In this document: one piece after another, positions 466 to 62,437 of the stretch | How the letters are laid out: every line of letters begins with the position of its first letter | Numbering within the stretch: position 1 is the first letter of the stretch | Assembly: GCA_963575745.1 (NCBI GenBank) | Contig: CAUYUJ010005780.1 | Span: 1,080,001 to 1,144,000, forward strand | Source: Prorocentrum cordatum | Lineage: Eukaryota; Sar; Dinophyceae; Prorocentrales; Prorocentraceae | DNA length: 64,000 nucleotides | Reading direction: 5' to 3' | The notes under the pieces: generated by a model | The model's database searches: none | The model's input: only the letters and a program-made list of their open reading frames with translations | Told to the model about the DNA's origin: nothing | Program-made: the position numbers and the translations under genes

Positions 466-1909
466 TCACTCGACGTCAGTTGCCCCGTCGGCGTGGATCG
501 CAGCAGATGCGCTCCCCGGGGCCTGACTCTCGCCCTGAGCCTGGATGGCGCCCGCGAAAGAAACCTGCCACTGGGCATCCTTGGCGAGGAAGGCGTCGAT
601 GCGCTCCTGGTCGACCTTGTTCTGCGACACGGGGCTCGCAAGCTCGGCGGCGACGCTCTGTTGATGGTCGACCTGGGCCGCGAAAAGGGCGTTGTCCGGG
701 TCGACGAGAAGGGCCCCTGTGCTCGCGCCAGCCCGTGCCATAGCCTGGGTGATGGTCTTGTCGGACATCTCCACGCCGCGCGCGACCTTCTTGCCAAGCG
801 CGATCCACTTAGGGCCGCTGTGCGCGTCAGCCAAAGCCTTGTTCTGCGGAGCAGTCACGAGGGACCTGAGATCACCGCTCTCCTGCATGAAGCCCACAGC
901 CACGCCGACGTGAGCCTTCAGGTCCGCGATCATGGTGAGCGTGGCCATTTCTCCCGCGAACAGGTACCCTGCGCCCGGATGGAACAAGTGGGGGCCTTTG
1001 CTGAGCTCCTTTGCAGCATCAAGGATCAACGCCCAGAAGCTAGGCATGGGCTTGAACACAGCGAGGCCGTAAGACGCGATCTTCTGGTACAACAGGACGC
1101 TCACCGGGACAATGGCCGTGCCCGCACCAAACTCCGACTGGCGAAGCTTGGTCCAAGTGTCGAGCTCTGCCAAGACCGCCGAGCCACACGTGCGGACGTC
1201 CTGCGAGGCGTCGGCGGCGACCTTTGCCAACACGGCGCGGAGCACGACGCGCGTGGCTGAGCCATGGCCTCCCTTGTACACCGCCGTGGTAATCTCGTCG
1301 TCCCGGATCGAGCCGTCGAGCTGCATCACCCCCTTGAGCGCCTTCAATTGGGCCCCGGGGAGGACCGAGCCACCAGTGTGGTGATTCGTGGCCCAGAAGT
1401 TCAGCTTCGCGAGTAGGGTCGCCATGGTGCAGATCTGCATCCCCTTGTTGCGCGCCCAGTCGAAAACATCGCTCTTCTTGACCTTGCCAACCACTCCCTC
1501 CTCGCTCGTCTCGCGAACTTCGCCGACCGGTGCCTCGTCCGAGCCGAGCTCCATCCACCCAAGGCCGATCGCGAAAGCACGATTGGCCTTGATGAACATC
1601 TTGAGCTCGTCTGAGCGGATCCCATGGTCGCACGTGTCCGTCAGAGCGACCTGGGATGCGATCGCGACGACGGTGGAAGTGATTTTCGTCGTGGTGACCG
1701 TCGACGTGCCTGCGCCGCCAAGGTCAATCATCGCCTTGACGTTGCGAGGGATGCAGATGTACTCCGCTACCGGTAGGCCGACGTCCGTGCTCTCGACCCA
1801 GCCAAGAGACCAGGTCCCGTTGCCGACGAACGCCGTCTCCCCCGCGTTTCCGAAGTCGGCCGCTGCTGCGATGGCCACCGAGCCGAGGTCTGCAACTACG
1901 ACGCCAAGA
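466..1909 (-). CDS. Large exon of an unknown protein (about 480 aa)
   Basis: Open reading frame of about 480 codons ending in TGA at 466-468, with even amino-acid usage unlike the surrounding repeats. I recognise no family. The N-terminal part is Ala/Val/Thr-rich (after the start of homology, 'GNGTWSLGWVESTDVG'); the middle has 'FDWARNKGMQICTMATLLAK' and a long mixed alpha-helical-looking section; the C-terminus is Ala/Gln-rich and ends 'DGATDVE'. On the minus strand a pyrimidine-rich stretch with AG at 1910, or GCAG at 1893-1890, could be the 3' splice site; the frame stays open upstream only because (GTA)n reads as valine, so I place the exon start near 1909 and treat the array at 1955-2703 as intronic. 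No start codon is assignable. It could instead be a fragment of a mobile-element protein; no catalytic motif argues either way. Confidence 0.6.
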
Positions 1910-4229: not shown

Positions 4230-5360
4230 GTAAAGCGCTTACTTCAAAGTCCGATCGTTCACCGTTAAGGGTTCACTTTCGTTTCCAGGCCAACATGGCT
4301 TATTTCTATGCTGGAATCCATTTGGTGAGGGTTGAAAATTTACTCTAATTTCCAGGGCCACCCGCGCGCGTGAAGGTCACCCGACAACCCGCTGGCCACC
4401 GTTCAGCGATCACTTTCGTTTACAAGCCAAAATAGCGACTGTTCTATTGTGGACAATACAGATCTCGCCACGGTCGCGTCCGCGCGCGCGCGCGATCGGG
4501 TGACCCACGCGCCGGCGGGTAATCCAAAATCCGGCTGGTCAACTTGAAGGGCCCGCTTTAGTTTCCAGGCCGACATGGCGACTGTTATATTCTTGAAATC
4601 GTTGAAAGACGAATGTCGACATCAATATCCAAGCGGCCACTGTTAAGGATTAACTTTCGTTTCCAAGCAAAAAGGGCACCACGTCCACTGTGGACAGTGC
4701 AAATCTAGCCACGCGCGCATCGGCACGCGCGCGCGCCCCGTGCGTCCGCGCGCGTGGCGAATTCTGCATTGTCCACACTGGGGAAGACGCCATGTTGGCC
4801 TGGAAACGAAAGTGGACCCTTAACGGTGACCAAACGGATTTCGGGTGACCCGCCCGCGCGTGGGTCACCCGTTCACGCGCGCGCGGACGCGGACGCGTGG
4901 GGCGCGCTCGCGCGCAGACGCGCTCGTAATTAGTTTTGTAGCATCCACCATGGAAGAGTCGCCGTGTTGGCCTGGCAAAGGAAGCGAACACTTAACAATG
5001 GCCGCTTGGAGTTCGAAATTGATATGCGTTTTCCAACGTTTTCAATGATATAAAAATAGCCACGTTGGCCTGGTAACTAAAAAAAAACGTCCCTACAGGT
5101 GGCCAACCGGATTTCGGATGACCCGCCCGCGCGTGGGTCACCCGATCGCGCGCGCGCGGACGCGCGCGTGGCGAGTTCTGTACTGTCCACAATAGAACAG
5201 TCATGTTGGCCCAAAATCCGGGTGACCCAACCGCGCGTGGGTTACCCGATCACGCGCGCGCGGACGCGCGCGTGGCGAGTTTCGTATTGCCCACAATGCA
5301 GAAGTCGCTATGTTGGCTTGGAAGCTAACGTGAACGCTTAATGGTGACCGATTGGATGTT
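4230..5360. repeat. CpG-rich repeat block with units in both orientations
   Basis: Repeats 'TTTCGTTTCCAGGCCAACAT' (and its complement), 'GGGTGACCC', runs of CGCGCGCG and 'TGTCCACAATAGAACAG' several times, some direct and some inverted (for example 4440-4510 against 5150-5200). The GGGTGACCC...GGGTCACCC pairs make local hairpins. No plausible protein is encoded; the listed frames are Arg/Ala-rich artefacts. Confidence 0.85.
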
Positions 5361-8021: not shown

Positions 8022-8217
8022 CGCGAACCCTCAGTAAACATTTCCGTTCGGAGCTCCGCGCGGATTCCTGGGATCGGCGCTCAGGCCCCCTCCCTGGCGC
8101 GCGGAAGCGCGCCATGGGCGGCGCCGGAGGCGCCGCCTGGGGGCTCCAGCGCCGATCCAGGAAACCCTCGCGGAGCTCCGAAAGTTTATGCTTATGCAGT
8201 TGTTTCTTCTTCGAGGA
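8022..8217. mobile_element. Introner-like inverted-repeat element, family B copy 1
   Basis: About 195 bp with long terminal inverted repeats: 'TTCGGAGCTCCGCGCGGATT' near one end and its complement near the other, joined by a GC-rich middle that also folds (GGCGGCGCC/GGCGCCGCC). On the plus strand the outer end continues 'AAGTTTATGCTTATGCAG' then a pyrimidine run and CGAG. It begins about 25 bp past the glycosyltransferase stop codon. Other copies: 9326-9512, 21295-21477, 49316-49490. Confidence 0.8.
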
Positions 8218-8242
8218 TGGGCGCCGCCGCGCTGGAGCGGCC

Positions 8243-10657
8243 TCAGGCGCCCCCCAGCTTCGCCTGCCGCCTCGCGGGCGCGACGCTGGCCTCCTTTGTC
8301 GAGACCGCCGCCTCCGCCTGGCGCGCCACGCCCTGTGCCGACCCCGCCTCAAGCAAGGCATCCACGCTGTTTTCGATGCCGTCGGCCGCCGCCAGCTTCG
8401 CGGACGCCTCCTGCGCGGCGGCCTTGAAGGTACTCCGGAAGATGCCGCCCCCGATGTCCCCCAGCGCGCCTCTCAGCGAGTCGGCCGACAGCGTCCTCAG
8501 GGGGCTGCGGAAGGACACGCCGGCGCCGATGCGCGCGATCGTGTCCGCATTCGTGGGCTGGTCCCCGAAGATGGGCACCACGCAGAGGGGGACTCCGAAG
8601 GAGAGGGCCTCGTGCACGCTGTTGGCGCCCCCGTGGGTGACGAAAGCGTCGCAGAGAGGCAGCAGGTCGACCTGCGGCACAGACTTGCAAACCACCATGT
8701 TAGAGGGAGGCTCGGGCAAAGCCTCCAGGGCGTCCGCCATGTTGGGCCCCATGGAGACGATAGCGAACATGCCGGGGTCCCTTGCCACGGCCTCGAAGAC
8801 AGCGCGAAAGACGAACAAGCAAAACTCCTCTTCGGGGAAACCGAAAGATACCGATACCGCTACTCCCTGGACCTCTCCTGGAGCGCGTCAGAGTGCGAGA
8901 ACAACGGAAGGGTGGCGGTGTCGGGACCTTTCCCTCCCCTGATCCTTACCCGTGTAATCCATCAGGCTCCTCGTGCCCTCGACCCACTCGTCGTTGTCGG
9001 CTGCCACGGAGCCGAAGGCCTCTCGCCAGAACTTGCCAGTCGCCACCGTCCCCAGGGACACCAGCACGAGGCGGTAGTCGTCCTCCTTGGCGCTGAGGGC
9101 GGCGAGCAGGGCTGGTGACGGGGAGCCGAGCCCAGCGCCGAGCCCCTCGGCGATGTCCGCGTTCTCGATCCTCCTCACGCCCGGGTCCAGGAGGGCACCC
9201 ACGCAGCGGAAGGGCGCGTGGCCAAACCTACGGACCTGCTTCTCCGACTTGGGCGGGGCGTAGAAGTCCTCGAGGGTGGTCACCAGGTTCAGGACGGGCG
9301 AGTAGAACTCGAGGAGACTGGCATCCTTGAATGAAAACAGCGGCACAACATAAACTTTCGGAGGTGCGCGCGGATTTCGTGAACTCTGCGCTGGACACCG
9401 AGCGCTCCAGGAGCGGCGCCGATGGGGCCTGGCAAGATTTCCAAGAAATCCGCGCCATGCTCCGAACACCAATGCTTGTGGCGTTTCTTTTTCTTCTTCT
9501 TTGAAGGGGCCCTGGGACACAGAAAAAAATAGTCACAAATAACAGATTCCCCACATTTTCCAATATTTTCTAGGTTTTTGACTTCCCACACTTCCCATAT
9601 TTTCCTATATTGTCTGGGGAATTGACGATTAACTGTGTCTGTGTGTTTTCCCCCGTGATTATTTTTTTCTTCTTCTTCTTTAGCACTTTGGATCCTCAAA
9701 CACGTCGATGCCGTACTCACTCCGGATCCACTGGCGCGGGCCCTCGACCCAGGGTAGGTCCTCCACCTGCGGGGCAACGTTAGGGGAGGACTGGATCAGG
9801 GGGGGCAAAATGAACAAGTAAGAATCGGTAATACATCGCCGATAGGTCGGCGATATACCTCCGAGAGCCAAATCGCACGTTCCTGGGCGGGGTGGCCTAT
9901 GAGGTCCATATCGGGCGATTGGGGGTCGATGCATCCACCCCTGAGCCTAGCCCCCCCCCCACGTTGCCCCTGGTCTTCGGGTCATAACTCGGCTCCCAAG
10001 CAGCCGTTCGGGACGTTCTGGGCACCTCCGGAAAGCCCTCGGCAAAACGCAGCTGCTAAAAGGCATCCAGAGGCTGGAAAACCGCCGCGAACAAACCAAA
10101 AAGCACGAAAACCAACGAAAACGTAGAAACTGTCCCCCCGCGGCGTTGCCCCTGACCACCTCGTCCGGCAGCGTGAAGACGCCTGGGCCTGGCATCGTGA
10201 GCATACTGACTGGTGCGGCGCCGTGCACGTGAGCCGCCACCCGGCCGCAGGGCAGGAACGGGTCGCAGACGATGGCGCTCACGCGCGGCGAAAGGGCGCG
10301 CACGTCGTCGAGGAGCTGGGGCAGCACCAACTGCGAGTTGTACATCACACTGAAGGGGAACCGCGTGAGGTGCTCTGGGGCGTCGTCGGTCAGGCCCACG
10401 GCGGCGCGCTCGGCGGCCGTCAACGCCGCGAAATGGCCGGGCTGCCTGAGGATGCCGGTGAAGTCGTGGTTGGCATACCGGAAGGGCTTCCATGCCGCGC
10501 CAGCGGCCTCGACGACGGCCCGCATGGAGCCGTCCACGAAATAGGTGACCTTGCAACCCCGCGAGACCAGGCGCGACACCAACGGCAGAGTGGGATTCAT
10601 GTGGCCCGTCGCAGCGATATTCATGAAAACAACGTGAGGCTGCGTCATCGCCGACAT
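8243..10657 (-). CDS. UDP-glycosyltransferase (GT-B fold, GT1/MGT-like), four exons
   Basis: Transfers a sugar from a nucleotide donor to a small acceptor, probably in the cytosol; substrate unknown. Exon 1 (10657 to about 10160) starts MSAMTQPHVVF and has the N-terminal GT-B signature 'ATGHMNPTLPLVSRLVSRG' that binds acceptor. Exon 2 (9766-9695) follows acceptor CCCCGCAG. Exon 3 (9325-8950) holds the inter-domain 'VLVSLGTVATGKFW'. Exon 4 (8829-8243) holds the donor-binding PSPG-like block: 'THGGANSVHEALSFGVPL' then 'FGDQPTNA', with the conserved HGG, E and DQ residues present. Predicted length about 509 aa, close to family size. Exon 3/4 phases agree with a GTAAGG donor at 8949. The exon 1 donor is ambiguous (GT at 10159 or 10156) and the exon 2 donor may be a GA (9694). 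No transmembrane tail is obvious in exon 4. Each intron carries an inverted-repeat element. Family assignment is firm; exact junctions 1 and 2 are inferred. Confidence 0.87.
8830..8949 (-). mobile_element. Family E introner-like element forming intron 3
   Basis: The 120-bp intron runs from GTAAGG to CCCCGAAG. Its 3' half matches a dispersed element found at 19205-19335, 37013-37152, 61310-61435 and 62306-62437; shared blocks are 'CAGGAGAGGTCC', 'AGCGGTATCGGTATC' and the following pyrimidine-rich CCCC-AG. In the 37-kb and 19-kb copies the same position also ends CCCCAG. Confidence 0.7.
9326..9512 (-). mobile_element. Family B introner-like element ending at the intron 2 acceptor
   Basis: Occupies the 3' half of intron 2. 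On the minus strand it starts near 'CTTCAAAGAAGAAGAAAAAG' and ends 'CCGAAAGTTTATGTTGTGCC' followed by 'GCTGTTTTCATTCAAG', which is the splice acceptor of exon 3. The two ends are inverted repeats of each other and match copies at 8022-8217, 21295-21477 and 49316-49490. The 5' half of the intron (9513-9694) is AT-rich and unrelated. Confidence 0.8.
9767..9985 (-). mobile_element. Family D introner-like element ending at the intron 1 acceptor
   Basis: Bounded by inverted repeats AGGGGCAACG and CGTTGCCCC. The inner end reads CGTTGCCCCGCAG and is the acceptor of exon 2. The centre has 'ATCGCCGATAGGTCGGCGAT', itself palindromic. A second copy lies at 15776-15945. The exon 1/intron 1 border at 10145-10155 also carries CAGGGGCAACG, so the whole intron may be an older insertion with a nested one inside. 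Confidence 0.72.
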
Positions 10658-14222: not shown

Positions 14223-15775
14223 GACAAGCGGAGCGTGGGGGGGGCATCTGGCTCACTCAGAGCTGCCAAGGCGTCCAATGTTGAGACTCCGAGCCTTCAA
14301 GCGATCAACCTCCCAAGCAGGAGTGGAAAAGCAAACGCCGAAAATCTGAATCTCTGGGCTGGCTGGCTGCATGGATGCTGCCAGGCAGCTGATGACAAGG
14401 GGCTCGACAAGCAAGGCGGGGAGATGAGAGGCTGGCCAGGCCACATCCTCCTATCTTCAGAGCGCCCGCCTAATTCAGTGGACTTGTTCGACACAAGTTC
14501 TGATGTGGCCTGGGCCGAAGGGCAGCGGATCCCGTCGAATTGTGCAGATCAAGGCACACTGTGAAAATAGCGCTTTCGCGGGGGTTAGAGTTCGGATGTC
14601 GCCACGTGTTCAACGAGTTCCGGACCCTACCCCAGCCGCCCATCGAGTTGCCTGAATCGTTGATCGGCGAGGGTAAGGTTCGGAGTACGCCACCGAAAGA
14701 GCTGCATTGGGGCGCAGGGAGTGAAGCCGCTCTGCGCTCAGGGGGGGCGGCAATCGCACGATGGCGGCGAATGATAAGAGGCGAGGCGCCCGAAAAAAGC
14801 GACAACGAAAACATATACCCTTTAAACGCGCGAACCAACGGGCCTCGTGCTGCCACAAGGCTACCGACTGGCCAACAATGGGCATGGGGGCCGGCCATGC
14901 TGGCTAGGAGAGGCCGGAATCGAATCGATGAGTCGGATCGGCGGTCGAAATGAATCGGTTCGGCGGAATCTGGAAGTCAAACCGGAAGAAATCGAATCGG
15001 CGAAGATCGGCAAGCCGATAAGGCCTCCACTGAGAAGCCAGAATCCAAATCGGAGTCCGAAGCCGAAGCGGAGCGAGAATCGGAAACGACCGACATCGAA
15101 TCGAATCGAGTCGGAGGAGTCCAGATGAGCCCTGTGCCAGGCGCGGCAGCCCCAGCGCCTTTGCCAGGCCTCCCCTGCGCAGTCGGCGCTCGAAGGTGCC
15201 CGCGCCCGCCGCCCCCTGGAGCCCATCTCGGCCAGCATGGCCGCGCCCCGCTGACGGCTGCTCCGTTCGGGGAGGAGGCAGGCATCCTTCGTGAGACGAC
15301 TGGAATTGGATGGGGATGCGATCGAGATGGGATGGAGATGGCGATTGGGAGCGGGAAAGGGGACGGAAATGGCATGACGGCGGCAGGATGATGGTATGGA
15401 ATGGGATGCAAATGATTTGGGGTGTGGGTTGGATGCTTTGATTGGAATGGGCTATGGAATGAGGGAACACGGCTGGCATGATTTGGCACGGTGCCCCTCG
15501 AGACTTCCGACGACAGCACAAGCTCGGTTTGCCCAACGTTCAGAAAACGAGAAAGGCACAACAAACATCACGAACGACAAGAATACCGGCATGCCCGCTG
15601 CACCTGGATGGCGAAGGATCCCAGTGTCCCAGCGCGCCGGATCGATCTACGAAGCTCCAAAAGGCAGAACAGGCCCTCGAAAGATTTGTTTGCTGGCAGT
15701 GCTAGCGGACGCGACGCCGGCGGGCCGCGCCTGCCACTGGGCGCACTGGAGCAGGTGGGAAAACGTAACGGTAGA
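14223..15775. other. No supportable gene; CGAATCGGA-type simple repeats
   Basis: 14915-15120 is a degenerate GAATCG/GAAATCG array, also seen at 19840-19905 and 22330-22560. 15300-15480 is GGATGG/GGAATGG-rich. 15478-15705 (+) and 15647-15781 (-) have frames with some protein-like character; the minus frame begins next to the CCGCAG end of element D2, so an exon there is possible but unproven. Confidence 0.4.
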
Positions 15776-15945
15776 CTGCTGCGGAGGATGAGGGGCAACG
15801 ATAGGCGGGGACTGGCATGGAGGGGGAAGCATCGACCTGGAATCGACGATACATGGCCGATAGATCGGCGACTGGCCCCCGACAGCGAATCCGCACCTTT
15901 CCCTTTCTCCTGGTCCCCCACCGGTCGTTGCCCCTGAGAAGATGA
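15776..15945. mobile_element. Family D introner-like element, copy 2
   Basis: Inverted termini AGGGGCAACGATAGG and CGGTCGTTGCCCCTGAG; centre 'CATGGCCGATAGATCGGCGA'. Same layout as the element in intron 1 of the glycosyltransferase. On the minus strand its lower end reads CGTTGCCCCTCATCCTCCGCAG in two blocks, a plausible splice acceptor, as in the glycosyltransferase copy. Confidence 0.68.
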
Positions 15946-19156: not shown

Positions 19157-19204
19157 CTGCTAGTCCCCGCCCTGGAATTCAGACAGTGAGGGCGTGGATA
19201 CTGG

Positions 19205-19335
19205 GGGACGAAGGGGTACCGATACAGCTGCTCCATGGACCTCCCAAAGGATGCATCTAGACCCGAACTTTGAGAAGAATCCGACTGTGGCGACAAGGAC
19301 TCCAGGACGAGCAGCGGCTCTGGAACTCTGAGATC
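19205..19335 (-). mobile_element. Family E introner-like element
   Basis: Plus-strand blocks GGTACCGATACAGCTGCTCC, 'GGACCTCCCAAAGGATGCAT', 'GAATCCGACTGTGGCGACAA' and 'GGACTCCAGGA' align with the copies at 37013-37152 and 61310-61435. On the minus strand it ends GGTACCCCTTCGTCCCCCAG, a plausible splice acceptor. Confidence 0.65.
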
Positions 19336-21849: not shown

Positions 21850-23465
21850 TGCCCCTTGGGGACCCCAAGGGGCCCCTTCAGGGCCCCTTCAGGGTACAAA
21901 AGACGCACCTATCTTCAACCCCCCAGTCATCGCCCTCCCATTACGCAACGCCCGACCGCCGCCGAGGCGGGAACTGCCGGCGGAGGGCCTTGCTGTCGTC
22001 GAGGGCGCTCTGCGCGCGCTGCGCCTGGCAAGCCCGACGGGTTCTGGGCCCCGCCCTGCCAGGGCCAGTGGATCGATCCCGGCGGTTCGATGTTCGAGGT
22101 CCGAAATTGTCGGGCGTCTTCGTCGGATCTCGGCGGCGTTTCATCCTCGGGATGCCTTCCAGCTCGCCGAAAGCGTTCTGGGGCTGCCTGGATCGTCCCG
22201 AACGGCCACTGGAGAACCGAAATATGACCCGAAAACCATGCAACAAGAAACGGCCTAAGGGGGGAGGAGGGTTTCTATGACTCGAGGTTCGCCTCGCGCG
22301 CGACCACGACGGTTACCAGGTCCGGGAACGCGGAAAACACATCGGATCGGCAGATCGGATATAATCGGACTGTGCATCGGATCGGGCTGCGTCGGCACGC
22401 AATCAAACTCGAATCGGATCGGCCGCGCCAGGATGCACAACAACGACATACAACATCAGAACGCCTCGGATCGTCGGAATATTGAAATCGAATCGGAAAG
22501 GGCTGGCTTGAGTCGATATCGAATCGGGTCGATCGCATCGAGCTGGATTAGCAAAGGTGGAGGGCTCTCAAATTCCAAGTGGGCAGGAGGTCCGGGAAAC
22601 AAACTTAAACACATGACGACGACGGCGACGCAGACAAACGACGACAACGAGGACGACACACGACACAACGACAGACGAACGAACGCAGTAACGCGAACGA
22701 CGACGCCAGCAGGTGTGAGGGAGGGAGCCCACCCCTCCGCTCCGATTGCGTTGACTTCGTCTGTATACGCCGACTGGGGTGTCTTAAAGGCTCCCCGCGG
22801 GTGAAACGCACACAGAGGGGGGTGGGGCCTTCTACATTGGAGAGGAAGAGAAGGTGGCGGATGAGCAAGACGAAGAGGAGCTTAAGGCAGGGCCGACCTA
22901 AACCGTGCTTTCGTTTTCGTTTTGTCTTCGTGGTCCCTCGCTTTGTCTTCAATGCACCTTTGCTTCAAAACAAAGTCGGCACGAAAACGGCCCACGAAAT
23001 CGCCAAGCCAGCGTTTTGCTCGAGCGCTGCGTTGAGTCAGGTGGAGGATGAGGGGATGAGGATCAGCAGCAGGAGCAGGAGCAAGAGGAGAAGGCAACCC
23101 AGAAGGCGGAAGTGGGGAGAACGAGGGGGGGGGGGCGGCAACGACCAGGAATGAACCGGACGACCAGGAGTGAACCGGATCCAAAAGTGTGGCCCGTTCC
23201 AGGGCGAGAGCGCCATTCGGAGCGACGGGAGCAGAGCGCAAATCCTGACATCTGGCCAACACTGCAGCGATGCACCGTCTCGAAGGACCAAAAGAACCCC
23301 GACCGGAAAAAAGACAATGGAAATGTCAGACTTTGAGGTCCTGTGCAGGAAGCCCACGAGAGAGGCGGCAGCACCGCTGGACTTGATCAGAGGAGAGCGG
23401 ATACCACAATTCACACTGAGCCTTTGTTGGGGACGGAGAGGCCAGGCAGGAGATTAGCAGGGGCC
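21850..23465. other. No supportable gene
   Basis: 22275-22560 is rich in CGGATCGGA and GAATCGAA units; 22618-22690 is a degenerate ACGACG tract; 23040-23110 is GGA/GCA-rich. Frames are open on both strands without consistent protein character. Confidence 0.4.
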
Positions 23466-36456: not shown

Positions 36457-37012
36457 GGTGTGCCAAAGTGAGGGTGGTGACGGGAGGAGGGAGGAGAGGG
36501 GGAGGGGGAAAAAGAAAAGAGGAACGCGGGGACCGTGTCTTCAAAACGAGGACCCAACACCACAGGATGGTCGGGGAGAAAAGAAACGAACGTCCCAGAC
36601 AACGCTGGCAAAAAAACGAAACATGGAACGAAGACATGGTACGATGGCTGGGGCGAGGGCAGAATTGGCTGGGGGTTTGGGCCAGGGCGAAGGCGATAGG
36701 CGAGGTTTTTGGCTTGAGGCAAAACACATCACAACAAATGAGCCAGGGCTGCGGCGAGGGCTACAGGGCTGGGGCTGGGGCCAGGCCTAGGAGAGAGGTC
36801 CTATTTGAGATTTGTGCGAAAATGAACGAACGTCCTGTTGCCCTAGAACCAAGGAGGGCGGAGCTACGGGCTACCGAGGGCCTTCCCTTAGAAGGAGCAT
36901 CCTGAGCCTGCATCCTCTCCTCATAGGGAGCCCACATCCTGCACCCCCCATCCTCCTCTCCTCCCTCCCTCCTCCTGCCCCTGCCCGCCCCCCGCCCCTC
37001 CGTCCTGGGGAG
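36457..37012. other. No gene seen; GGGCTGGGG-rich stretch
   Basis: 36650-36790 has degenerate GGCTGGGGCGAGGGC units. No coding signal with support. Confidence 0.45.
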
Positions 37013-37152
37013 ACCAAGAGGTACCGAGACAAACCTATACCGCTAATCCTGGACCTATCCTTGGGTGCGTTCTGACCAGCATTACGTGGCGAATCCAGCG
37101 GTGGCGATGAAGGCCTCTCAGGAGACCCGAAACGGGAAACCGAAGGAAGGGT
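37013..37152 (-). mobile_element. Family E introner-like element
   Basis: Plus blocks GAGGTACCGAGACAAACC, 'TATACCGCTAATCCTGGACC', 'GGTGCGTTCTGACCAGCATT', 'GCGAATCCAGCGGTGGCGAT', 'GAAGGCCTCTCAGGAG'. Closely matches 61310-61435. On the minus strand it runs into GGTACCTCTTGGTCTCCCCAG, a strong acceptor-like end. The minus frame just upstream (37190-37540) is protein-like ('RGLLEEGAHAEAVAAQARLG') and may be the exon it interrupts. Confidence 0.72.
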
Positions 37153-37817
37153 AGCGGGATAGGTGCCTTTTTCCTCCTCCCTTTTGCCTGTCCAGACCGG
37201 TGGCGCAGGCAGGGAGCACCCCCAGTCGAGCCTGAGCGGCCACTGCCTCTGCATGGGCTCCCTCCTCAAGGAGGCCCCGGGGGAGCTGGCGCGAGGGCTC
37301 TAGGCAGAGGAGCCGGTACCGACTCGGTGCCGAGAGTAGCCGCGGACCGACGCGTCCGCGGCTGTCCACCCAGCGGGTCAGGAAGGAGAAGGAGGTCACC
37401 ATTTGGGAAACGAGTCCTAATGGAAACGGGTCCTGAGGCTCTTCGTTGTTTTCGAGCGCTCGGGGCCCTCCAAGGGCCCCACGGCGGTCAGACAGCGACT
37501 CGGGATGAATAACACGTCCATGGGGGAAAGCCCCAGGGTCCATGACCTGGTTCCCTCAGGACTCGTTTCCCCCCATGGCAATCAGTCAGGAGAGGAGGAC
37601 GGGCGGAGGGAGCCGAGGTTGCTGCACAACAGATGGGACGCAAGGCCTCGCTGTGCGGTCGACCTGGCCTGGCCGCGAGGGCAGGCCTCCCCACCGCGCT
37701 CCTGCCGAGCGGGCGCCCTCGCCTGGCCTCCTCCTCCTCCTCCTCCTCCTCCTCTTCCCCGTCCTCCCTCCACCCCTCCTCATCACTCTGCGGCCCTCGG
37801 AGGGCGGGTCAGCTCAC
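37153..37817. other. Possible exon material on minus strand; TCC tract at 37730-37760
   Basis: 37190-37540 (-) has a coding-like frame ending near a GT (CACCG|GTCTGG) before element E. Not bounded upstream. May belong to the same gene as the exon at 37818-38018. Confidence 0.3.
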
Positions 37818-47585: not shown

Positions 47586-48387
47586 CTAGGCCGGCACTCG
47601 CGAGGGGGGGGGTCGGCTCTGAGCCCCGCGGGCGCGACGCCCTCTGCCTCTGGAGCCAAGGGGGCATCGCATTGTCTCCGTCGGGGCCTGCGCCTTCGCG
47701 AGGCGCGCCGCGTTGACGAACCAGTCGAACTCGGTAGACTCGCGCGCGCAGGAAGTGTCCGCCACGCACGCAGAGACCACGACCTTCTTAGCATCGTCGA
47801 CCTGCACCTCCTTCGTGAACTTCGAGGGCGGCTCGCCGTCTGCCTCCTGGCCATTCTTCATCTGCTCATCCACCTGCTCGAAATTGGAGCCATTCTGCGT
47901 GGCCCCCCTGCAGATACGAGCGCTCTCCGGGATCGCTGCGTCCTTGTCGACGAACTCGAAAGGGCGCATCTAGATCTTGTAATAGAAGTGGCCGTCGATG
48001 CCGAGCGATGGCGGTGTCCTGCGCGCCGCGGGCGCGAAGCCGCCGCCCCCTCTGCTGCCGCTTGGCCTACTTCCAGCATTGGGGCAACGCCTCCGCGCCC
48101 TCCTCGGAGAAGCCCGGCTCCGCGACGTTTCAGAACGCTGTCGCCCTGCCGTCGATCTCGACTGGCCCGTCACGGACCGCCGCCTCGACCTTCGCTCGCA
48201 GGACGGGCTTGATGAGCTCGACCCGCGCCTGGAGTTCGTTATCCACCTCCTTGTCCTCGACCTGCAGGTTGCCGCCGCCAGCCTGGGCCGCTCGCCAGAG
48301 GGCCACCGCTGTGGCCGCCACCACCTGGCGAAAGCCGCCACCGCGCACAACAGCACCGAGGACAGCCTCCGCCATCGCGTCGGCCAT
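47586..48387 (-). CDS. Unknown protein gene behind a spliced-leader relict
   Basis: Two coding-like segments. Segment 1 (48387-48130) begins ATG and reads 'MADAMAEAVLGAVVRGGGFR', 'QVVAATAVALWRAAQAGGG', 'LQVEDKEVDNELQARVELIK', ending TGA; the Ala-rich start and Glu/Lys helix look real. Segment 2 (47969-47586) begins at an ATG right after an in-frame TAG: 'MRPFEFVDKDAAIPESARIC', 'NGSNFEQVDEQMKNGQEADG', 'FTKEVQVDDAKKVVVSACVA', 'STEFDWFVNAARLAKAQAP', then an Arg/Gly tail. A GC donor at AGG|GCGACA (about 48147) joined to CTAG|ATGCGC would fuse them in phase, but this is inference. 41 nt upstream of the first ATG lies a relict spliced leader (48446-48429), so that ATG is the likely start. No family recognised. 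Confidence 0.5.
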
Positions 48388-48428
48388 GGCCGTAGCCAGC
48401 GCGAACAAGGGGCTGGGCGAGCAGGCTG

Positions 48429-49315: not shown

Positions 49316-49490
49316 CAGGAAAAAACAGCATAAACTCAACGTTCGGAGCTCCGCGCGGATTTCTTGGATCTGCACTGGAAATCCCTCCCTCGCGCGGAAC
49401 GCGCTAGGGGCGGCGCCAGAGGCGCCAACAGGTGGTCCCAGCGCAGCTCCTAGAAATCCGCGCGGAACTCCGAGTCAGGGGAGATAGGGG
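49316..49490. mobile_element. Family B introner-like element, copy 3
   Basis: Plus strand starts GAAAAAACAGCATAAACTCA, then 'GTTCGGAGCTCCGCGCGGAT' with the complement 'GAAATCCGCGCGGAACTCCG' at 49461-49480, and GGCGGCGCC/GGCGCC in the middle. Same layout as the copies at 8022, 9326 and 21295. Confidence 0.75.
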
Positions 49491-60539: not shown

Positions 60540-61275
60540 GCGCCGATGCGTGTCCGGAATGTGATGACTTTCCCGCGGTTCTGCGGGACCCCAGACCAGA
60601 CACCCCTCACGAGAAGCGTGGCCCCAAGAGTTCCACCTACGGCCTCAGTGGGCACGACCGCATGGCGGCACCGTGCCCAATTCGGCAACACAGCCCTCAC
60701 GCGATTCGTGCCCTCTGCGAGAAGCTCCACCTGCGGCCGCAAGGGGGGTGCTCGCATGCGCCCCGCGCACATGTCGGCACACGCCTCACACGCTCCGTGC
60801 CCCCCGCACATACGGCCTCAGAGGGTGCACTCGCATGCTGCCTACGCCCACGTCGGTACACCGATCTCGCGCGTCGTGCCCCCCTTCGGGAGCTCCTCCT
60901 GCGGCCCTGGTGGGGGCGGGCCGCGTGCCGCACCACGTCCATTTCGGCGCACCCCTGAAACGCCTCGTGCTGCCACGAGGAGCGTCACATACGGTGTCAG
61001 TGGGGCGCGAACCCTTTTCGGCAGCTCCCCTCACACGCTTCGTGCCCCCATATATGGAGCTCCACCTACAGCCCAAGAGGGGATGAGCCGCATAACGCCA
61101 CATACCTATTTCGGCACACCCCTCACACGCGGCGTGCCCCCTATAAGAGGCTCCACATACGGCCTGTGGGGGTGCTCGCATGCTGCCCCGCCCCAATTTC
61201 GGCACGCACCTCTCACACGCTTCGTTCCCCCTATCGGGAGCTCCAACTGCGGCCCCAATGCGCGCACGCGTCTGC
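60540..61275. repeat. 75-92 bp minisatellite related to 35690-36456
   Basis: Units carry CTCACACGCTTCGTGCCCCC, GAGCTCCACCTACGGCC and TGCTCGCATGC, with good copies near 61030, 61122 and 61212. The reverse complement of the 77-bp unit at 35.7-36.5 kb shares TTCGTGGCCCC, AGCTCCACC and GCATGCGTCC in the same order. Confidence 0.88.
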
Positions 61276-61309
61276 CGCCCCACGCCCATCACCCGCGGGC
61301 TCCGCTGAC

Positions 61310-61435
61310 GCCGACATAGCGATACCGCTGATCCCCCGACCTCTCCCGGGGTGCGTTCCGACCAGAATTCCGAGGCGAATCCAGCAGTGGCAACGAAGGC
61401 CTCCCAGGAGGCCCACAAAGGGGGAAACGAGGAAA
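61310..61435 (-). mobile_element. Family E introner-like element
   Basis: Plus blocks 'GCGATACCGCTGATCCCCCG', 'CTCTCCCGGGGTGCGTTCCG', 'CGAGGCGAATCCAGCAGTGG', 'AACGAAGGCCTCCCAGGAGG' align with 37013-37152 and with intron 3 of the glycosyltransferase. The minus sequence just upstream (61455-61615) is protein-like ('VNEPICVELRAAQGVWRSPH', 'MLRAAGSLEILVPCLTAKRA') and may be the exon it interrupts. Confidence 0.75.
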
Positions 61436-61454
61436 GGGCAGCCGTATGGGCACG

Positions 61455-62215: not shown

Positions 62216-62305
62216 CTGAAATCACATGCCCATCTGACAAGCACCTTGCAAGTCGCTTCAGAGTACTGTCTGAAGATGTTCAAAATGGAATATGGGGAAC
62301 CAAGC

Positions 62306-62437
62306 GGGTACCGCCACTGCTACTCCCCCGACCTCCGACCGAAACTTCGATGCGAATTTTAGCCGTAGCGACGAGGGCCTCCCAGGGGGGCCCCAAAAGC
62401 GAAAACGACGTAGGGGCAACTATAGCGGTACCTCTTG
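62306..62437 (-). mobile_element. Family E introner-like element, diverged
   Basis: GGGTACCGCCACTGCTACTC at one side and CAACTATAGCGGTACCTC at the other are inverted repeats; the middle keeps 'GATGCGAATTTTAGCCGTAG', 'CGACGAGGGCCTCCCAGGGG' of the family. It lies in the presumed intron before the transmembrane exon. Confidence 0.58.

Follow-up and report, generated by a model that had tools for sequence, protein, structure and literature searches.

Three introns of a Prorocentrum cordatum glycosyltransferase gene are made largely of repeats from different families

The three introns of a glycosyltransferase gene in P. cordatum, a bloom-forming alga, consist largely of repeats, which fits the known dinoflagellate habit of turning transposons into introns; a recent origin, which an earlier sequence-only reading had proposed for them, is unsupported. 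On balance, we think that they are probably spliceosomal introns consisting for the most part of MITE-like introners (non-autonomous inverted-repeat DNA elements) that belong to different families. Because introner-type introns have already been published for this species (PMC10666404, available text), the gene adds a well-resolved case to a known phenomenon. The origin of introns is an old question, and for lineages that have gained many introns recently, the leading answer is transposons that become introns. With each intron traceable to a different repeat, and one intron coinciding with a four-codon change, such a gene offers a compact way to test whether introns are born precisely or at a cost in coding sequence.

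The gene runs on the minus strand from 10657 down to 8243 of the 64-kb stretch of DNA that we analyzed (the window) and has four exons and three introns, all in phase 0 (Table 1). Splicing at 10159-9767, 9694-9326, and 8944-8828 gave a product identical at 511 of 511 residues to a deposited P. cordatum glycosyltransferase, P0001, bearing out the gene, coordinates, and three introns of the sequence-only reading; because P0001 is itself a gene prediction, this identity is no independent proof of the junctions. Pfam places the product among the UDP-glycosyltransferases (PF00201, 1.7e-18; PF06722, 8e-17; the query sequence had one wrong residue). A protein search reported 114 relatives among the best 7995 candidates scored, of which 97 were aligned, 17 distant ones (P0098-P0114) having been dropped before counting. 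The search placed the window in P. cordatum, a dinoflagellate, as the sequence-only reading had presumed. In the alignment, with P0001 counted, the length around intron 2 is unchanged in 90 of 91 proteins and that around intron 3 in 94 of 94; as judged from these alignments, this is independent support for the predicted junctions of introns 2 and 3.

Table 1. Exons, introns, and repeat elements of the glycosyltransferase gene (window coordinates)
Feature	Position	Strand	Basis
Exon 1, codons 1-166	10160..10657	minus	Translation equals P0001 residues 1-166
Intron 1, 393 bases, GT-AG, phase 0, AGGTGG over both junctions	9767..10159	minus	Spliced vs P0001
D1 repeat piece, 5' part of intron 1	9971..10111	minus	BLAST E 1e-12; related to 22107-22238
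Family D element, 3' part of intron 1	9768..9975	minus	BLAST E 7e-9, alignment; other copy 15742-15944
Exon 2, codons 167-190	9695..9766	minus	Spliced translation vs P0001
Intron 2, 369 bases, GA-AG, phase 0, AGGAT over junctions	9326..9694	minus	Spliced vs P0001
AT-rich inverted-repeat segment, 5' half of intron 2	9521..9670	minus	Arms 9670-9655 and 9536-9521, 15/16 paired
Family B element, 3' half of intron 2, end at acceptor	9328..9513	minus	BLAST, family model, arm alignment
Exon 3, codons 191-317	8945..9325	minus	Spliced translation vs P0001
Intron 3, 117 bases, GA-AG, phase 0, AGGA over junctions; short family E copy	8828..8944	minus	Spliced vs P0001, family model
Exon 4 and stop codon	8243..8827	minus	Spliced translation vs P0001
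Family B element 12 bases past stop codon	8020..8230	minus	56-base arms, 77% complementary

Intron 1 has a GT-AG pair and introns 2 and 3 have GA-AG; GA donors account for 23.8% of P. cordatum introns in the available text of PMC10666404. We rejected a GT-AG version of intron 3 (ACGG/GTAAG, the slash marking the junction), since P0001 has TGKEF there and 11 aligned proteins have an invariant G followed by K or R; the GA junction is based on the deposited protein together with its relatives. The lengths of introns 1, 2, and 3 (393, 369, and 117 bases) are each divisible by three, and the introns contain 1, 5, and 1 in-frame stops, respectively.

The sequence-only reading had placed inverted-repeat elements in all three introns. 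Introns 1 and 3 look like such elements, with statistics from strong to marginal, but the ends of intron 2 do not. Intron 1 starts with GTGGTCAGGGGCAACG and finishes with CGTTGCCCCGCAG; its inverted repeat, GGGGCAACG, is perfect (9/9) and lies 7 and 4 bases from the intron ends. None of 300 shuffles, and one of 300 random window segments, had a 9-base inverted repeat within 30-base ends. The signal was weaker by gapped scoring over 60 bases (P = 0.028 and 0.036), and whole-arm alignment gave P = 0.22. The predicted RNA fold was better than those of shuffles (z = -4.3; 40 shuffles). Intron 1 thus shows the introner pattern described in the available portions of PMC7789003 and PMC10666404, that is, an inverted repeat of 8 to 20 bases no more than 30 bases from both ends, together with a direct repeat of 3 to 5 bases.

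The assignment of intron 1 to family D applies to its 3' part; the intron is composite, combining a D element with a 5' D1 piece akin to sequence at 22.1 kb. Its BLAST matches in the window are 70% identical, at 15789-15899 (E = 7e-9) and 22107-22238 (E = 1e-12). The D copy at 15.7 kb, outside confirmed introns, has inverted-repeat ends of borderline significance (P = 0.053). Allowing up to 2 mismatches, we found no enrichment of the D end motif in the window (12 matches versus 7.9 expected; 11 of 100 shuffles reached 12).

Intron 2, which had been assigned to family B, proved to be B in its 3' half only, the 5' half being an AT-rich inverted repeat. The latter was matched by 0 of 500 shuffles and a fraction of 0.011 of random segments, and no second copy of it was found within the 64-kb window. 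We found no inverted repeat at the ends of intron 2 (P = 0.43 to 0.64 at 30 bases and 0.15 to 0.39 at 60 bases); the longest exact one at 30 bases was 5 bases (P = 0.43 to 0.48), short of the introner pattern. The RNA fold was barely above shuffles (z = -1.3; 40 shuffles). BLAST matches in the window, both 79% identical, lie at 8145-8219 (E = 5e-10) and 49325-49379 (E = 9e-7). The three B copies outside confirmed introns, at 8.0, 21.3, and 49.3 kb, have inverted-repeat ends (P = 0.003, 0.003, and 0.007). For intron 2 only, one may ask whether family B simply spread locally, into the intron and past the stop codon, with no role in intron birth. Such spread would fit the position of three of the four B copies, outside the introns confirmed here, and the fact that half of intron 2 is not B. 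However, the end of B lies at the intron 2 acceptor, and we consider the idea rather doubtful.

Intron 3 carries an inverted repeat with 17 of 21 positions paired (P = 0.004 by shuffle and 0.018 by random segments), and whole-arm alignment gave P = 0.013. This repeat includes mismatches and extends to 33 to 36 bases from the intron ends; without mismatches, the inverted repeat is at most 6 bases long, which is not unusual (P = 0.11 to 0.20 at 30 bases), and the RNA fold was barely above shuffles (z = -1.1; 40 shuffles). The description of family E as an inverted repeat applies to intron 3, but not to the other four copies, none of which is a clear inverted repeat (P = 0.10, 0.28, 0.46, and 0.85). 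BLAST matches of intron 3 in the window lie at 37023-37070 and 61316-61356 (80%; E = 5e-6 and 2e-5), with a further one at 19217-19243 (27 bases, 89%; E = 2e-4). The five family E copies (8820-8930, 19181-19329, 36993-37160, 61257-61441, and 62291-62389) are all on the minus strand.

Two other statements of the sequence-only reading agree with these results: all three introns have BLAST matches elsewhere in the window, and the elements end at or near the acceptor. The D and B elements stop within 4 bases of it; the E arm stops 15 bases away, with the E alignment reaching the intron end.

BLAST queries against the window covered each intron plus a short flank, and family models placed four copies of B, two of D, two of D1, and five of E there. 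It is very improbable that these similarities are chance resemblances in GC-rich sequence. The shortness of the intron 3 match (41 bits) and the lack of enrichment of the D end motif alone would fit chance, but for each intron the observed score was reached by 0 of 300 dinucleotide shuffles, and the E copy at 62291-62389 was found (E = 4e-9) by a model built without it; it is the sole unused copy, and model scores are circular for the copies used in building. Random noncoding segments scored as well as introns 1, 2, and 3 in 9.8%, 18.5%, and 13.5% of cases (400 segments per intron, placed off the gene and tandem arrays, with matches mostly inside tandem arrays discarded). Because no shuffle reached the intron scores while 10 to 19% of random segments did, we take the repeats to be real and repeats to be common here; since the shuffles fell short, we rejected the random-segment matches as proof of chance.

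The three families had been called unrelated, and three distinct families remain a fair reading; adding D1 gives four repeat types plus a single-copy AT-rich inverted repeat. Across six comparisons between introns (three pairs on two strands, 100 shuffles each), there was no likeness beyond shuffles except for a short match on opposite strands between introns 2 and 3, which beat all of its shuffles (score 25; shuffle maximum 23). Introns 1 and 3, on opposite strands, gave P = 0.03. Both matches are short, and we take them as weak.

The other copies of the intron families in the window are all outside the introns confirmed here, and a codon-bias scan with Pfam searches of four segments revealed no further gene in the window that has introns of these families. 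The scan, trained on the codons of the glycosyltransferase gene itself, returned 24 segments, three of which are exons of that gene and many of which are simple repeats or antisense; because it missed the 24-codon exon 2, it may have missed short exons elsewhere. The exact B motif had 0 matches in viral contigs, and in a protein search of these contigs, one stretch was matched by pattern but encodes no relative.

Direct repeats span the junctions of all three introns (AGGTGG, AGGAT, and AGGA for introns 1, 2, and 3), in agreement with the introner direct repeat; since AG/G is the usual splice context, only 3, 2, and 1 of these bases, respectively, are informative. The introner interpretation suits intron 2 less well than introns 1 and 3, where inverted-repeat element makes up most of the sequence and short direct repeats mark the junctions. 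For introns 1 and 3, an element would have inserted into exon DNA at an AG/G site, leaving short direct repeats on either side; splicing from a GT or GA donor within the upstream repeat to an AG at the downstream end would then remove the element as an intron. Intron 2 most likely had the same start with a family B element, whose end would supply the pyrimidine-rich stretch and AG, plus a second, AT-rich element. Transposition, the order of events, the creation of introns by insertion rather than entry into older ones, and repeated intron gain are what we infer from these features.

The main competing explanation, which we regard as plausible but less probable, is that older introns existed at these positions and were later filled by repeats common in the genome, so that the elements were not their makers. 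Several observations would fit: matches to the window are as good for 10 to 19% of random noncoding segments, both intron 1 and intron 2 are composite, the ends of intron 2 lack inverted repeats, and the mean P. cordatum intron is 4.7 kb (PMC10666404, available text). However, little room for an older intron is left outside the inverted-repeat arms, only 7 plus 4 bases in intron 1 and 12 plus 15 in intron 3, and direct repeats at the junctions also argue against it. A further point in its favor is a four-codon change at intron 1, as expected if an old boundary had moved; precise insertion does not predict such a length change, which counts against an introner origin.

That change is seen in the loop G159-P176, which 82 of the 97 aligned proteins span with both anchors (15 do not span it or lack an anchor residue). 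Only P0001-P0004 have a loop of 16 residues; in the rest of the 82, it measures 20 residues in 76 proteins, 17 in one, and 21 in another. The multiple alignment places the four-residue gap after residue 166, exactly at the intron 1 junction (between codons 166 and 167), where a single-site tally of 85 proteins lists two further proteins without the insertion. In pairwise alignments, 47 of the 77 gaps among the 15 commonest placements fall at residues 164-167 and the rest at 158-175; given this scatter, the multiple alignment makes the gap position look sharper than it is. P0002-P0004, the three best hits of P0001, are 65 to 79% identical to it; P0002 is a P. cordatum paralogue encoded on a 21-kb contig. 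Most likely, four codons were lost at or beside intron 1 in the common ancestor of P0001-P0004, a placement read from shared loop length rather than from a tree.

The loop change may mean either that intron 1 arose with codon loss or that the boundary of an older intron shifted, or it may be unrelated to the intron. A tentative version of the first option, which we consider unlikely though worth stating, is that the element inserted into a loop of fixed length and that use of an upstream donor absorbed coding bases, so that the birth of intron 1 cost four codons in an ancestor shared by the P. cordatum paralogues and their closest relatives. If true, the introner-type introns of this one gene would differ in both family and age. 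Codon-loss birth and a boundary shift would both argue against a very recent intron 1. The claim of recent gain is further weakened by the longer window matches, which are just 70 to 80% identical, and by a four-codon loss that P0001 shares with three proteins at 65 to 79% identity; closer copies of the elements possibly exist elsewhere in the genome.

MITEs are non-autonomous DNA transposons that are short and have inverted-repeat ends. The elements described here are likewise short with inverted-repeat ends, also outside confirmed introns (B, with D borderline, but not E); the likeness is one of element structure. They share with published introners short inverted-repeat introns, direct repeats at the junctions, a 5' splice site within the direct repeat, and the occurrence of several families per genome. 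They differ in that window matches are 70 to 80% identical, intron 2 is composite, and introns of these families are confirmed in this gene only. Introner families have been defined by similarity as at least four similar introns per genome, with absence from an orthologue or allele (PMC9860276, available text).

According to the available text of PMC10666404, introner elements are enriched in the introns of P. cordatum. Our introns resemble those found there by pattern search in species, near-end inverted repeats, and short direct repeats, but only intron 1 is exact; intron 3 has mismatches and intron 2 lacks the pattern. The available literature on introners and Prorocentrum, supplements aside, yielded no description of individual P. 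cordatum introner families. As in Amoebophrya (PMC7789003, available text), inverted repeats could bring the splice sites together and direct repeats lie over the junctions, but this gene has the GT-AG and GA-AG splice sites of core dinoflagellates. Introners of Symbiodinium microadriaticum follow nearly the same scheme, having inverted repeats and direct repeats of 4 bases, and insertions that add or remove adjoining codons are also reported (PMC9860276, available text). In P. glacialis, 12,253 introns from recent insertions are reported, with 15 families of at least 100 members (PMC11453091, available text).

Other features of the window include a 474-codon open frame with coding-like codon use (469-1890, minus strand), which has no Pfam match and no relatives among the best 7997 candidates scored. 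An open frame at 47676-47960 (minus strand) weakly matches HSP90 (E = 2.4e-4), its 20.7 bits falling short of the Pfam cutoff of 24.4; a nearby frame at 48133-48426 has no Pfam match. A dense cluster of overlapping long inverted repeats, with arms of up to 194 bases, occupies 4247-5249 (from the 25 longest of 73 pairs).
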